Shown one piece after another: positions 18,916 through 42,224 of a stretch of 44,934 nt of DNA; the stretch's first letter is position 1, and each line of letters opens with the position of its first letter. The stretch is from Candidatus Coprenecus stercorigallinarum (GTDB lineage Bacteria > Bacteroidota > Bacteroidia > Bacteroidales > UBA932): contig DVIL01000076.1 in assembly GCA_018711305.1 (NCBI GenBank), positions 1 through 44,934 on the forward strand, read 5' to 3'. The notes under the pieces are model-generated. The model had not been told where the DNA came from. It saw nothing but the letters and a program-made list of their open reading frames with translations, and did no database searches. Made by a program: the position numbers and the translations under genes.

Positions 18916-19127
18916 AATGAATCTCCGGTGCATGTTGCGAGGTAAGCGTCCCTTACTCCTTCGGAAGGAGTGGGAAAATGCCGGAAAACGCGACTCCTTC
19001 GGAAGGAGTGATGGGTACATTTTCGGCGAAAATGGCTCTCTGGTGCCTGTAGCAAGGGTGTGCGTCCCGTACTCCTTCGGAAGGAGTGGGAAAATGCCGG
19101 AAAACGCGACTCCTTCGGAAGGAGTGC
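18916..19127. repeat. Palindrome locus 1: two 116-bp tandem units, four palindromes
   Basis: ACTCCTTCGGAAGGAGT occurs at 18955-18971, 18993-19009, 19071-19087 and 19109-19125. The spacing of starts is 38, 78 and 38 bases. Each pair is separated by the same 21-base sequence, GGGAAAATGCCGGAAAACGCG without its last base repeated exactly in both pairs, and the whole unit recurs after 116 bases. The array lies between the 3' ends of the sulfatase and the GNAT gene, ending 12 bases from the GNAT stop. There is no T-run, so these are not ordinary terminators. Confidence 0.9.
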
Positions 19128-20375: not shown

Positions 20376-20431
20376 ACTCCTTCCGAAGGAGTCACGATAT
20401 CGCTCGCTTTCCCTACTCCTTCGGAAGGAGT
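20376..20431. repeat. Palindrome locus 2: two palindromes 39 bp apart
   Basis: ACTCCTTCCGAAGGAGT at 20376-20392 and ACTCCTTCGGAAGGAGT at 20415-20431 start exactly 39 bases apart and differ only in the central base, so they are the two orientations of one element. The second abuts the barrel fragment. Confidence 0.9.
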
Positions 20432-39177: not shown

Positions 39178-40857
39178 ATGGACAACATACATCAGCGGTC
39201 GCTCAGAGCGCTGCTCGAATTTTCATTTACCAGATACGGAGACAAGCCCTTCCTGCATTTCATAGACGGGCCGGGCTACACATACGCGGAGTTTCACGCC
39301 AAAGTCTATGAGGTAGGAGAACTGCTCTCCCGCTACGGGCTCGGCCGGAACGACATGATCGGCCTCCTGAGCCAGAACATGCCCAACTGGGGAGTAGCCT
39401 ATTTCGCCACCACGGCCTTCGGGAGGATAACCCTGCCGATGCTGCCCGATTTTTCCGAAAGCGAGATCAAGCACATCCTCAAACATTCCGCCGCCAAGGC
39501 CCTCTTCGTCTCCCGCAAACTGCTGCCGAAGGTCCTGCCCAAGGCCCTCGACCGGCTGGAAGTGATCATCTGCCTGGACGATTTCTCCATAATCAAGGGA
39601 GAACCGTGCCCGGCCGGCCCCGCCCCCCTGCCCTCCGAAGAGGAGATACAGCCCGATGACCTGGCCGCCATCATCTACACCTCCGGCACCACAGGCAGCT
39701 CCAAAGGAGTGATGCTCAGCCACCGCAACCTCTGCGCCAACCTCTGGTCCACCGAGGATGCCCGCCCGAGCTTCGACTGGGACGTATGGCTCTCCCTCCT
39801 TCCCCTGTCCCATACCCTCGAATGCAGCATGTGCCTCCTCCTCCCGATGCAGGCCGGAGCCAGCGTAAACTACATCGAGAAGGCCCCCACCCCCTCAATC
39901 CTGATGAACGCCCTCGCGAAGGTGCGTCCCACAACGATATTGTCCGTACCCCTTATTATAGAAAAGGTATACCGCAGCGCCGTCCTGCCCAAACTCACCG
40001 CGACACCGCTGCTGCGTTTCATGCACCGCATCCCCCCTCTCAGGAAGATGATGCACCGCAAGGCCGGGAAGCAGCTCTTTGAGAAATTCGGAGGACGCAT
40101 CCGGTTCTTCGGCATAGGCGGGGCAAGACTCGACCCCGAAGTTGAGCGTTTTCTGCTCGAAGCCCATTTCCCCTACGCCATAGGCTACGGCCTCACCGAG
40201 ACATCGCCCCTCATCGCCGCCGCTCCCCCCGACATGGTACGGCTCGGATCCACCGGTCCGGTAGTCAAGGGAGTAGAGCTTCGGCTGCTGGACAAAGACC
40301 CCAAGACCGGCGTGGGAGAGATAGCCGTCAAGGGGGACAATGTCTTCAAAGGCTATTTCAACAATCCGGAAGCCACCTCGTCTGCCTTCACCGAAGACGG
40401 CTGGTTCAAGACCCGCGACCTCGGCAAGCTGGACAAGGACGGCTGGCTCTATATCAAGGGCCGTTCCTCCACCACCATCATCGGACCCAGCGGAGAGAAC
40501 ATCTACCCCGAGGAAGTCGAGAGCGTCATCAACAGCCACGACATGGTGGCCGAGTCCCTGGTAACCAATCGCAAAGGCCGCCTGACCGCCCTCGTCCACT
40601 TCGACTCCGAGAAACTCAAGGCCTTCCTCGAATCCACAGATGAGTTCAAGCGCACCACCCAGGAGAAACTCGAGAACCTCAAGAAAGAGCTCCTCGAATA
40701 CGTCAACCAGAAAGTCAGCAAATTCTCCCGCATCAGCGAGATAGCCCCCCAGGACCAGGCCTTCGAGAAGACCGCCACCCACAAAATCAAGCGCTACCTC
40801 TACGACGGGTCCAAGACTTCCGGCAAGTCCTCCAAGGACAGTAAGGGTTCAAAGTAG
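39178..40857 (+). CDS. Long-chain acyl-CoA synthetase (AMP-binding)
   Basis: This adenylate-forming ligase activates a fatty acid with ATP and CoA. The 559 residues contain the P-loop-like IIYTSGTTGSSKGVMLSH (about residues 163-180), GYGLTETSPLIA, the GWFKTRDLGKLDKDGWLYIKG hinge region and IYPEEVES. The catalytic Lys near the C-terminus is likely in ATHKIKRYLY. It ends in a Ser/Lys-rich tail (GSKTSGKSSKDSKGSK). Together with the PlsC-like gene it forms a lipid-acylation pair behind parE. Palindrome locus 3 begins 31 bases after its stop. Confidence 0.93.
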   Translation: MDNIHQRSLRALLEFSFTRYGDKPFLHFIDGPGYTYAEFHAKVYEVGELLSRYGLGRNDMIGLLSQNMPNWGVAYFATTAFGRITLPMLPDFSESEIKHILKHSAAKALFVSRKLLPKVLPKALDRLEVIICLDDFSIIKGEPCPAGPAPLPSEEEIQPDDLAAIIYTSGTTGSSKGVMLSHRNLCANLWSTEDARPSFDWDVWLSLLPLSHTLECSMCLLLPMQAGASVNYIEKAPTPSILMNALAKVRPTTILSVPLIIEKVYRSAVLPKLTATPLLRFMHRIPPLRKMMHRKAGKQLFEKFGGRIRFFGIGGARLDPEVERFLLEAHFPYAIGYGLTETSPLIAAAPPDMVRLGSTGPVVKGVELRLLDKDPKTGVGEIAVKGDNVFKGYFNNPEATSSAFTEDGWFKTRDLGKLDKDGWLYIKGRSSTTIIGPSGENIYPEEVESVINSHDMVAESLVTNRKGRLTALVHFDSEKLKAFLESTDEFKRTTQEKLENLKKELLEYVNQKVSKFSRISEIAPQDQAFEKTATHKIKRYLYDGSKTSGKSSKDSKGSK

Positions 40858-40887: not shown

Positions 40888-40982
40888 ACTCCTTCCGAAG
40901 GAGTCGGGAATTGTCGGGATTCGGCTACTCCTTCCGAAGGAGTAGGTATTTGCCGGGATTTAGCCGCTCCTTCCAAAGGAGT
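40888..40982. repeat. Palindrome locus 3a: three palindromes exactly 39 bp apart
   Basis: ACTCCTTCCGAAGGAGT at 40888-40904 and 40927-40943, and a degenerate GCTCCTTCCAAAGGAGT at 40966-40982. The two 22-base spacers resemble each other (GGAATTGTCGGGATT and GGTATTTGCCGGGATTT), so the true unit is 39 bp: a 17-base palindrome plus a related spacer. It lies just after the acyl-CoA ligase gene. Confidence 0.9.
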
Positions 40983-41065
40983 GGAATGTTGCACTTAAGC
41001 CGGTCGGCCTATAACGAAATCCAGAAGGTAGTGGCAAAAGACCACTTCTCTCGGCACCTTCACCT

Positions 41066-41385
41066 TAACTAACTCACCTTCCGAAGGTGGGACGATTTCG
41101 CAGGAAAACTGCACACCTTCGGAAGGTGGGAAAGGCCGGAGCGGAAGGAAAACGCGGCTACAGACGCTGTGGCGGACATGGCGCGAATACTCACCTTCCG
41201 AAGGTGGGACGATTTCGCAGGAAAACCGCATACCTTCCGAAGGTGGGAAAGGCAAGAACGGAAGGAAAATGCCGCTACAGACGCTGTGGCGGACATGCTG
41301 CGAATACTCACCTTCCGAAGGTGGGACGATTTCGCGGAAAAACTGCACACCTTCCGAAGGTGCGAAAGGCCAGGAGAAGGAGGAC
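41066..41385. repeat. Palindrome locus 3b: three 117-bp tandem units, six palindromes
   Basis: CACCTTCNGAAGGTG palindromes start at 41075, 41114, 41192, 41231 (first base T), 41309 and 41348. The steps are 39, 78, 39, 78 and 39, so the unit is exactly 117 bp (three times 39). Between pairs the sequence GCTACAGACGCTGTGGCGG recurs. The array ends 26 bases from the stop of the convergent metallophosphatase gene. No T-runs follow the palindromes. The 40983-41065 stretch between 3a and 3b has no recognisable feature. Confidence 0.9.
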
Positions 41386-41387
41386 GG

Positions 41388-42224
41388 CTACTTGAAGTCA
41401 ATGTCGAAACGGCCTACCCACTCGCCCTGGGCACCGGCCTGCACAACAACGACGTCACGGCCGACGCGGTTCTTGTAGACGCGGTCGGTTTTTAGGAAGG
41501 TGTGGCTGTGGCCGCCTATGATGATGTCGATATTCTCGGAGTCCTTGGCCAGGGCGACATCGTTGGCCTGGTCAGGATAGCCGGAGTAGCCGAGATGGGA
41601 AAGGGCTATCACCAAGTCGCACTTTTCCTCCTTCTTGAGATACTCTGCCCACTTGTCGGCCGTAGCAAAGGCATCCATGTAGATTATACCCTTGAGGTTC
41701 TGTCTGGCCACCAGAGTACGGAGCGGAACAGTCAGACCGAAAATGCCTATCTTCCTGCCTGCCTTCTCCACTATCACGTATGGCTTGACTATGGACTCCA
41801 AAGCTGTGCCCGAAAAGTCGTAATTGGCACAGACTGTCTGGAACTTGGCCTTGGAGAGGCGGCGGGCCAGTTCATCCACCCCGTTGTCATATTCATGGTT
41901 GCCGATGGCCACTACCTCGTATCCGAGGGCATTCATCACCTCCATCTCGAGGTCTCCCCCGAAGACGGTAAAATAAGGAGTGCCCTGATTGTAGTCCCCG
42001 GCGTCGACGATGAGCACATGGTCCTTGCCATACCGGTCCAGCACCTGACGGAAATATTCGGCACGCCTGTGTACCCCCCTGGTACCGGCGCCCTTGCCTA
42101 CACGCACTTCCTCTATCTGGGAATGGGTATCATTGGTATGCAGAATCACAAGGTCCTGGGCACTCGCGGAAGAAACCGCCACAGACAGGAGCAACGCAGC
42201 TGCAAATATATGTCTCACTTTCAT
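41388..42224 (-). CDS. Secreted metallophosphatase, N-terminal half of a split 5'-nucleotidase
   Basis: The 278-residue protein has a signal peptide (ending SASA, residue 22) and the calcineurin-like metallophosphoesterase domain of UshA-type 5'-nucleotidases: LHTNDTHSQIEE, DAGDYNQGTP, GNHEYDNG and GGHSHTF with the metal-binding Asp, His and Asn. It stops where the substrate-binding C-terminal domain would begin. That domain is encoded by the gene just upstream (42234-42980), nine bases away. The two products together would form a periplasmic nucleotide-scavenging enzyme. Confidence 0.93.
   Translation of the reverse strand: MKVRHIFAAALLLSVAVSSASAQDLVILHTNDTHSQIEEVRVGKGAGTRGVHRRAEYFRQVLDRYGKDHVLIVDAGDYNQGTPYFTVFGGDLEMEVMNALGYEVVAIGNHEYDNGVDELARRLSKAKFQTVCANYDFSGTALESIVKPYVIVEKAGRKIGIFGLTVPLRTLVARQNLKGIIYMDAFATADKWAEYLKKEEKCDLVIALSHLGYSGYPDQANDVALAKDSENIDIIIGGHSHTFLKTDRVYKNRVGRDVVVVQAGAQGEWVGRFDIDFK

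Follow-up and report, generated by a model that had tools for sequence, protein, structure and literature searches.

The closest described systems are the REP palindromes and their RAYT proteins (TnpA_REP; REPtron), which are related to the HUH Y1 enzymes of IS200/IS605. RAYTs are relatives of single-strand DNA transposases and occur as single, mostly vertically inherited genes; REPtrons and GT[AG]G feet are described, the classes with REPs or REP-like structures have median protein lengths of 151–213 aa, no REPs or REP-like structures are given as found for class 2.1 (238 aa) or class 2.3 (325 aa), and subclass 2.6 and class 3 also go without GT[AG]G (PMC6006769). REPs lie mostly between co-directional and convergent genes (PMC3733652), TnpA_REP co-evolves with REP (PMC8266576), and the orthoswitch of RAYT-flanking REPs was defined by Nunvar et al. 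2013, where its mechanism is only speculated on (PMC3686654).

The palindromes analyzed here resemble REP/RAYT systems in several respects. They are short and extragenic and number from tens to more than 100 copies, they flank one HUH/Tyr gene copy and are otherwise mostly at gene 3′ ends, their arms covary, and their versions go with RAYT alleles. On the other hand, there is no 5′ GT[AG]G guide, the protein is long and carries an extended C-terminal tail, cutC is included in the flanked segment, and the pitch is fixed at 38/39 bp and 116–118 bp. Overall, we consider it highly probable that the palindromes are a REP-like family belonging to one long RAYT encoded beside cutC. Our confidence is slightly lowered by a hybrid palindrome downstream of one RAYT (genome G008) and by the fact that most array-free sites are not strict empty sites. 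A sequence-only reading of this DNA had matched the palindromes to no named element, a view that is now less supported, as the evidence favours the REP/RAYT kind. We found no literature report of this palindrome family or of REPs in Coprenecus, with most subscription journals outside the search.

The palindrome array and its predicted hairpins

The window, which is the whole stretch of DNA that was analyzed (44,934 nucleotides of Candidatus Coprenecus stercorigallinarum, contig DVIL01000076.1), contains nine palindromes at 40888–41362 in a convergent intergenic region. All nine were confirmed: three have ACTCC arms, the third being decayed, and follow each other in steps of 39 and 39 bp, and six have CACC arms with steps of 39, 78, 39, 78 and 39 bp. 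The number of palindromes, the steps and the two arm versions are as originally read. The single 39-bp grid proposed for all of them holds within each group, but from centre to centre the groups are separated by 108 bp and not by 117. The features are as follows (no strand is assigned unless a sign is given).

18955–19125: second family site in the window, four ACTCC-version palindromes with steps of 38, 78 and 38 bp
20376–20431: third family site in the window, one ACTCC-version dimer with a step of 39 bp
39178–40857 (+): flanking gene, which we take from its sequence to be AMP-binding long-chain acyl-CoA ligase-like; it ends 30 bp before the array
40888–40904: ACTCC-version palindrome 1, ACTCCTTCCGAAGGAGT
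40905–40926: spacer of the ACTCC dimer, 22 nt, the loop of a predicted long single-stranded DNA hairpin
40927–40943: ACTCC-version palindrome 2, 39 bp after palindrome 1 and forming a dimer with it
40966–40982: third ACTCC-version palindrome, decayed and imperfect, core CCTTCCAAAGG
41072–41188: CACC unit 1 of the 117-bp tandem repeat, with palindromes at 41075–41089 and 41114–41128, then a 63-nt interval
41189–41305: CACC unit 2, with palindromes at 41192–41206 and 41231–41245 (the latter with one outer mismatch)
41306–41371: CACC unit 3, partial, with palindromes at 41309–41323 and 41348–41362
41388–42224 (−): flanking convergent gene, presumably 5′-nucleotidase/metallophosphoesterase-like, with its gene end at 41388

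The CACC group consists of three 117-bp tandem units, the last one partial, which are 91–94% alike over the compared parts. With up to two mismatches allowed, the window has 14 matches against shuffle means of 0.27 and 0.22, and no shuffle reached 14; chance is excluded as an explanation of the palindromes. The Rfam scan of the window gave 0 matches at the gathering threshold. A CRISPR array is ruled out, as first suggested, because the spacers between the repeats are related to each other. The shared spacer core had been given as GG-TTTGCCGGGA, which fits the left group, whereas across the genus the purine-strand core is GAAAANGCGGGAAA. At 40995–41401 the 117-bp (39-codon) period keeps overlapping ORFs of 102–117 aa open on both strands; these are probably spurious and likely to give rise to false gene calls. 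A coding repeat was rejected: the period of 117 leaves the frames open, but the 38-bp and 118-bp steps seen elsewhere break the frame.

We collected 124 distinct dimers. For the 71 CACC dimers of step 39, the purine-strand consensus reads tgC.CACCTTCgGAAGGTGaG..GAAAA.GcgGGaAA.CtgC.CACCTTCGGAAGGTGGgA, and the 19 ACTCC dimers of step 39 have the common core GgAAAatGCGGGAAa. The central bases are equal in 63 of the 71 CACC dimers, which gives the two palindromes the look of direct copies instead of inverted ones. The flanks are conserved in the 117-bp unit, and the element is larger than its palindromes.

The arms change together. We examined 265 partner palindromes, for which the core was the sole selection criterion. 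Their third pair from outside lies beyond the search core; it is Watson-Crick in 236, compared with a mean of 142 and a maximum of 159 in shuffles that ignore relatedness, and of the 265 it is A-T in 173 and T-A in 60. Within the 124 dimers, both palindromes have A-T in 80 cases and both have T-A in 24, and the pair is changed in one or both palindromes in the remaining 20. This covariation bears out the earlier description of a real hairpin family with jointly changing arms. The outermost pair is not conserved family-wide (96/265). Intact-arm CACC and intact-arm ACTCC palindromes are never combined in one of the 124 dimers. The tetranucleotide GT[AG]G was found within 2 nt 5′ of the stem in 0 of 218 palindromes on either strand. 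The spacer showed no covariation, and on this ground its interpretation as a conserved stem was ruled out.

Five stretches were folded as single-stranded DNA. In four of them, two of which are the two strands of 41072–41130, the best structure is one long hairpin with the spacer as the loop region (−14.6 to −21 kcal/mol, z from −3.9 to −8.5); in the fifth, a longer stretch from G011, the long hairpin appears in the centroid only. These predictions suggest that a dimer exposed as single-stranded DNA, e.g., on the lagging-strand template, would fold into one long hairpin, with a stem mostly interrupted at the central base and a purine-rich spacer as its loop. The RAYT would recognize, cut and rejoin this hairpin, so that copies spread between genes, and the pairing would be under selection, so that both arms change together. 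In having dimers that are predicted to form one long single-stranded hairpin and in occurring as tandem arrays, the family resembles REPINs and BIMEs, but judging by their central bases its palindromes are direct and not inverted copies, and its tandem unit holds a further interval of about 61–63 nt.

Copies across the genome and the genus

The window's own genome (G000; 2.137 Mb in 102 contigs) has 70 matches to the ACTCC palindrome at up to two mismatches, some of which may be the CACC version, compared with 4 for a reversed control pattern. Random spacing or few copies had been named as the outcome that would speak against a repeat family; the copies are many and their spacing is nonrandom. 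The core CCTTC[C/G]GAAGG occurs 72 times (2 for its reversed control), and the stretches around these occurrences hold 73 cores, one of them T-centred, in 42 clusters with up to 8 exact cores at one site. At the level of sequence, these counts demonstrate dispersal over the genome. Distances of 38 or 39 bp make up 22 of the 31 neighbour distances under 400 bp (39 bp, 17 times; 78 bp, 6 times; 38 bp, 5 times; 116, 118 and 147 bp, once each). Arms of at least 7 bp are present in 32 of the 42 clusters, and 31 of these 32 lie outside gene calls made with a home-made caller that uses a codon score (coding fraction 0.76); a cruder ORF caller, since replaced, had put 9 of the 32 within ORFs. Seven of the ten core-only clusters overlap gene calls, and these are probably due to chance.

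The dimer pattern was found in the window's own genome and in 12 of 18 other Candidatus Coprenecus genomes, and in 0 of 40 genomes outside the genus, which the NCBI taxonomy places in Rikenellaceae. Exact copies (CTCC...GGAG / CACC...GGTG) were counted in the 19 genus genomes with the following results for ACTCC/CACC.

G000 51/8; G003 24/71; G008 14/99; G005 19/23; G002 30/63
G016 10/99; G013 38/117; G011 3/50; G018 2/6
G014 5/2; G009 1/7; G012 0/1; G017 2/2
Six further genomes 0/0

A scan of named genomes for the core gave at least 80 loci, of which 40 were taken as Coprenecus and the other 40 served as a spacing contrast only; among the matches listed were Candidatus Coprenecus merdigallinarum, avistercoris and merdipullorum as well as Bacteroidales, together with unrelated genomes that have the core with other arms. 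As separate observations, the Chloroflexi isolate Go_Eff_bin_125 has many CCTTCNGAAGG pairs at a spacing of about 42 bp whose outer arms are others and whose central bases often differ, which apparently form a dimer repeat family of their own, and Ignavibacteriae HGW-Ignavibacteriae-1 has AACCTTCGGAAGGTT-type palindromes about 36–38 bp apart with alternating central bases in the locus stretch from 3323 on.

Placement is extragenic: among 61 distinct dimer clusters from the window's own genome and related loci, none overlaps a gene call, and 27 lie between co-directional, 14 between convergent and 3 between divergent genes, with 14 at stretch ends and 3 far from genes. Convergent placement exceeds divergent placement (p = 0.013). 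Sites mostly at gene 3′ ends would also suit a transcriptional or RNA element, either bidirectional terminators or 3′-UTR hairpins that end or stabilize mRNAs and are spread by selection with no transposase. The spacer consensus on the pyrimidine strand also has TTTT a few bases past the hairpin, and one terminator-like hit exists at 41346–41364, where the hairpin is followed by CAGTTTTTCC on the minus strand, so that the earlier remark that there are no T-runs was inexact. However, this one hit in the window compares with a shuffle mean of 1.2, and among the 27 co-directional sites, 13 have the T-rich strand in sense and 14 in antisense orientation, which speaks against a strand-specific RNA signal. 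Intrinsic terminators were rejected on these results, in agreement with the first reading. An RNA element would, moreover, leave the linkage to a single RAYT locus and the 117-bp tandem units unexplained, and REPs themselves are mostly at 3′ ends (PMC3733652). We therefore regard this explanation as very unlikely. The proposal of an RNA hairpin family or a protein-binding array was right about hairpins; the RNA or binding role is less supported, and the evidence favours a DNA element of the REP/RAYT type, with which a secondary RNA role is compatible.

The site in the window was compared with its orthologues by means of the phosphoesterase gene, which has a match in 17 of the 19 genus genomes. 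In G000 it is followed by an array of three CACC units plus three ACTCC palindromes; the array has three CACC units plus a single ACCCC palindrome in G008 and two CACC units in G013. The three sequences are alike on the phosphoesterase side of the array. Presence and unit number vary at one orthologous site. No core palindrome was found within about 1.5 kb per side at the other 14 loci; the ligase neighbour is present in only 4 of these (G001, G003, G004 and G010), and most array-free sites therefore do not qualify as strict empty sites. The phosphoesterase and ligase genes are separated by another ORF in G003 and almost adjoin each other in the repeat-free genome G001. We also observed an indel of 166 bp between G008 and G013; it lies a short way past the last CACC palindrome and is bordered by TTAA on either edge.

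A RAYT-like gene beside cutC

We found 42 Y1_Tnp matches in 15 of the 19 genus genomes and examined 40 of these loci (all except G005:C156 and G015:C51) over about 3 kb per side, less at contig ends. One RAYT-like orthologue of 311–313 aa is intact beside cutC in G002, G008, G011, G013 and G016, with one copy per genome. The gene order is trpS-cutC-RAYT in four of these five genomes, and in G013 the contig ends before trpS; the names trpS and cutC are presumptive. Family palindromes are present on both sides of the RAYT in all five genomes, starting 13–37 bp after the first base of its stop codon on the downstream side and lying 1.2–1.5 kb before its start, beyond cutC, on the upstream side. 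The downstream side of G008 has a single imperfect palindrome with a CACC left arm and a GGAG right arm, which supports neither version. In contrast, 34 of the other 35 RAYT-like loci had no core palindrome in the stretch examined, and the remaining one had a single core at +773. Within 700 bp of other RAYT-like genes there were isolated palindromes at most and no array, and the same holds for other RAYT groups and sister genera, where a few of the isolated palindromes are common to orthologues. Each genome encodes several further RAYT-like proteins, in orthologous groups of about 280–390 aa, with no arrays within 700 bp.

The protein matches the NCBIfam model NF047646, "REP-associated tyrosine transposase" (E 6.5e-10 and 2.3e-11), and Pfam Y1_Tnp (E 2.1e-4 and 1.1e-3), in each case below the curated cut-offs. 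Residues H51-V-H53 and Y108 are invariant in the five RAYT sequences, and a published motif table assigns them the putative roles of HUH motif and catalytic Tyr. A structure model built from a two-sequence alignment was unusable (pLDDT 39). The PDB profile search gave one hit, to myosin (E 0.3), which was taken as chance, and the single PHROGs hit (E 0.069) was not used. Set beside the length and motifs published for TnpA_Y1 subclass 2.6, the system is similar in its occurrence in Bacteroidetes and in flanking structures without GT[AG]G. It differs in length (311–313 aa here, median 179 aa there), in its motifs (THVH and YVLRNP here, NH[LIV]H and YIH[QN]NP there) and in its perfect or near-perfect palindromes, the structures of subclass 2.6 being weaker (PMC6006769).

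A cutC gene is present in 18 of the 19 genus genomes. Of its 20 matches we used 17, leaving out two contig-edge pieces in G010 and a weaker second match in G002. All seven loci with RAYT sequence have family palindromes, and the other ten have neither RAYT sequence nor palindromes, the flanks at some of these ten being shorter than 1.5 kb. The seven comprise the five intact loci, G003, where the RAYT is cut by the contig end after 38 residues, and G000, where a RAYT remnant covers codons ~25–193 and lacks the start and the last third. At the G000 locus, the upstream side of cutC carries an ACTCC dimer, and the downstream side has no exact palindrome. The summed copy number is 53–155 in the seven RAYT-locus genomes compared with 0–42 in the other 12. 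The highest of the latter is that of G005, which has 42 palindromes though no RAYT at its cutC locus. By eye, leader-like sequence between cutC and the RAYT position is kept in G005, suggesting that this genome lost its cutC-linked RAYT; broken RAYT-like pieces lie on its contig C156.

In the cutC tree, the seven RAYT-locus genomes and G005 form one clade (99/94), and hence both the seven-against-none result and the copy-number contrast reflect few independent events. The phosphoesterase tree instead places G005 with G009 inside the RAYT-locus group. In addition, a conserved stretch that starts with AAACCGGC[AG]GAGC and contains CTCCACCGGTT follows the downstream array in four RAYT-locus genomes and comes directly after the broken RAYT in G000; it was not found in the G008 stretch examined. 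It is perhaps the terminator of the next gene.

The linkage of the palindromes to this one RAYT locus bears on two further explanations. Near-perfect dyads, the fixed 38/39-bp pitch and as many as 8 exact cores per site would also suit a duplex binding array for a chromosome-organizing or regulatory protein, with versions that follow that protein and a RAYT locus that merely carries sites. Such an array is poorly reconciled with palindromes at 7/7 cutC loci with RAYT sequence and 0/10 without it, with a version that goes with the RAYT allele, with a unit number that differs between species and with 6 of 19 genus genomes having no copy, and we consider it quite improbable, although the palindromes may have a protein-binding role beside mobility. 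Least probable are MITE-like remnants of another, unseen transposon, the nearness to the RAYT being due to hitch-hiking: the element does extend beyond its palindromes, with conserved flanks in the 117-bp unit, and copies remain although the window genome's own RAYT is broken, but the palindromes flank one orthologous RAYT in 5/5 intact cases and 34 of 35 other RAYT-like genes have none nearby.

Arm versions and RAYT alleles

Within the REP-like family, the arm version goes with the RAYT allele. CACC arrays lie on both sides of the RAYT in three of the five genomes and upstream of it in G008, and ACTCC palindromes lie on both sides in G002. The four RAYTs with CACC palindromes are 94–97% identical to each other, and the ACTCC-flanked RAYT of G002 is 61–62% identical to them. 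The difference is concentrated in the C-terminal part. Invariant columns among the five proteins number 81 of 84 in residues 1–84, which include H51-V-H53, 21 of 29 in residues 85–113, which include Y108, and 85 of 199 in residues 114–312, where the CACC-type proteins are 92–96% identical to each other but share only 45–46% of residues with the ACTCC type. At the DNA level, identity to G002 is mostly 0.8–1.0 through cutC and the first ~250 bases of the RAYT gene and lower between the genes; in the RAYT gene it is ~0.7–0.8 up to ~350 bases and 0.2–0.7 thereafter. According to this profile, two segments distinguish the alleles, one being the C-terminal part together with the downstream array and the other the upstream array, and the cutC gene in between is alike.

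The ACTCC allele is known from one intact gene (G002) and one remnant (G000), the latter being 82–84% identical to the ACTCC-type RAYT and 62–64% identical to the CACC type. The window's genome thus combines a broken ACTCC-type RAYT with mostly ACTCC repeats, and because its RAYT is a broken remnant, its arrays are probably relics. The ACTCC share of copies is highest in G000 (0.86) and G002 (0.32) among the seven RAYT-locus genomes, followed by 0.25 in both G003 and G013; even so, G002 has the ACTCC allele yet about twice as many CACC copies. Inverted flanking arrays as the ends of a composite transposon were considered and dropped, as the arrays are, by eye, inverted in G011 and not in G002.

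Preservation of the copies was compared in 17 stretches of G002 (contigs C1–C10), 6 loci of G013 and 7 loci of G008, alongside G000; the stretches were chosen through exact cores, and the fractions exclude copies with 3 mismatches. Intact ACTCC copies amount to 64 of 88 in the two ACTCC-allele genomes and 7 of 18 in the two CACC-allele genomes (p = 0.011). CACC copies were not worse preserved in the ACTCC-allele genomes (39/53 versus 59/71 intact, p = 0.27), and within G002 the ACTCC copies were not better preserved than the CACC copies (15/24 versus 31/41 intact, p = 0.28). By the latter comparison, the idea that the ACTCC copies of G002 are young and so prove a recent switch is not supported.

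These results suggest that one RAYT locus has two specificities, which appear as the two arm versions: CACC arms go with one C-terminal part and ACTCC arms with the other, and specificity, and thereby the version, may be determined by this part of the protein. Cleavage and mobility would be activities of the RAYT. The two compensating versions of the sequence-only reading look like an orthoswitch coupled to an exchange of the C-terminal part of the RAYT. As in the orthoswitch described in PMC3686654, the REPs around an orthologous RAYT are of another class within the same REP group, and the older class persists in the genome, as it does in G002. Unlike in that description, the C-terminal part of the RAYT is replaced here too, with the HUH part kept. 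We tentatively put forward, as a possibility rather than an expectation, that the C-terminal part of ~200 residues is a swappable specificity module, which would be replaced by recombination downstream of a fixed catalytic N-terminal part, after which the arrays at the locus, and then the copies in the genome, would be rewritten in place to the matching version.

If this is true, a swappable C-terminal module would provide a mechanism for the orthoswitch. The natural pair of alleles described here bears on how RAYTs choose and change their hairpin substrates: with a near-identical catalytic N-terminal part, a different C-terminal part and different arms, it allows one to ask which part of the protein reads the hairpin. 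The findings also suggest that Bacteroidales may carry REP systems that would be missed by searches for GT[AG]G feet and short RAYTs.
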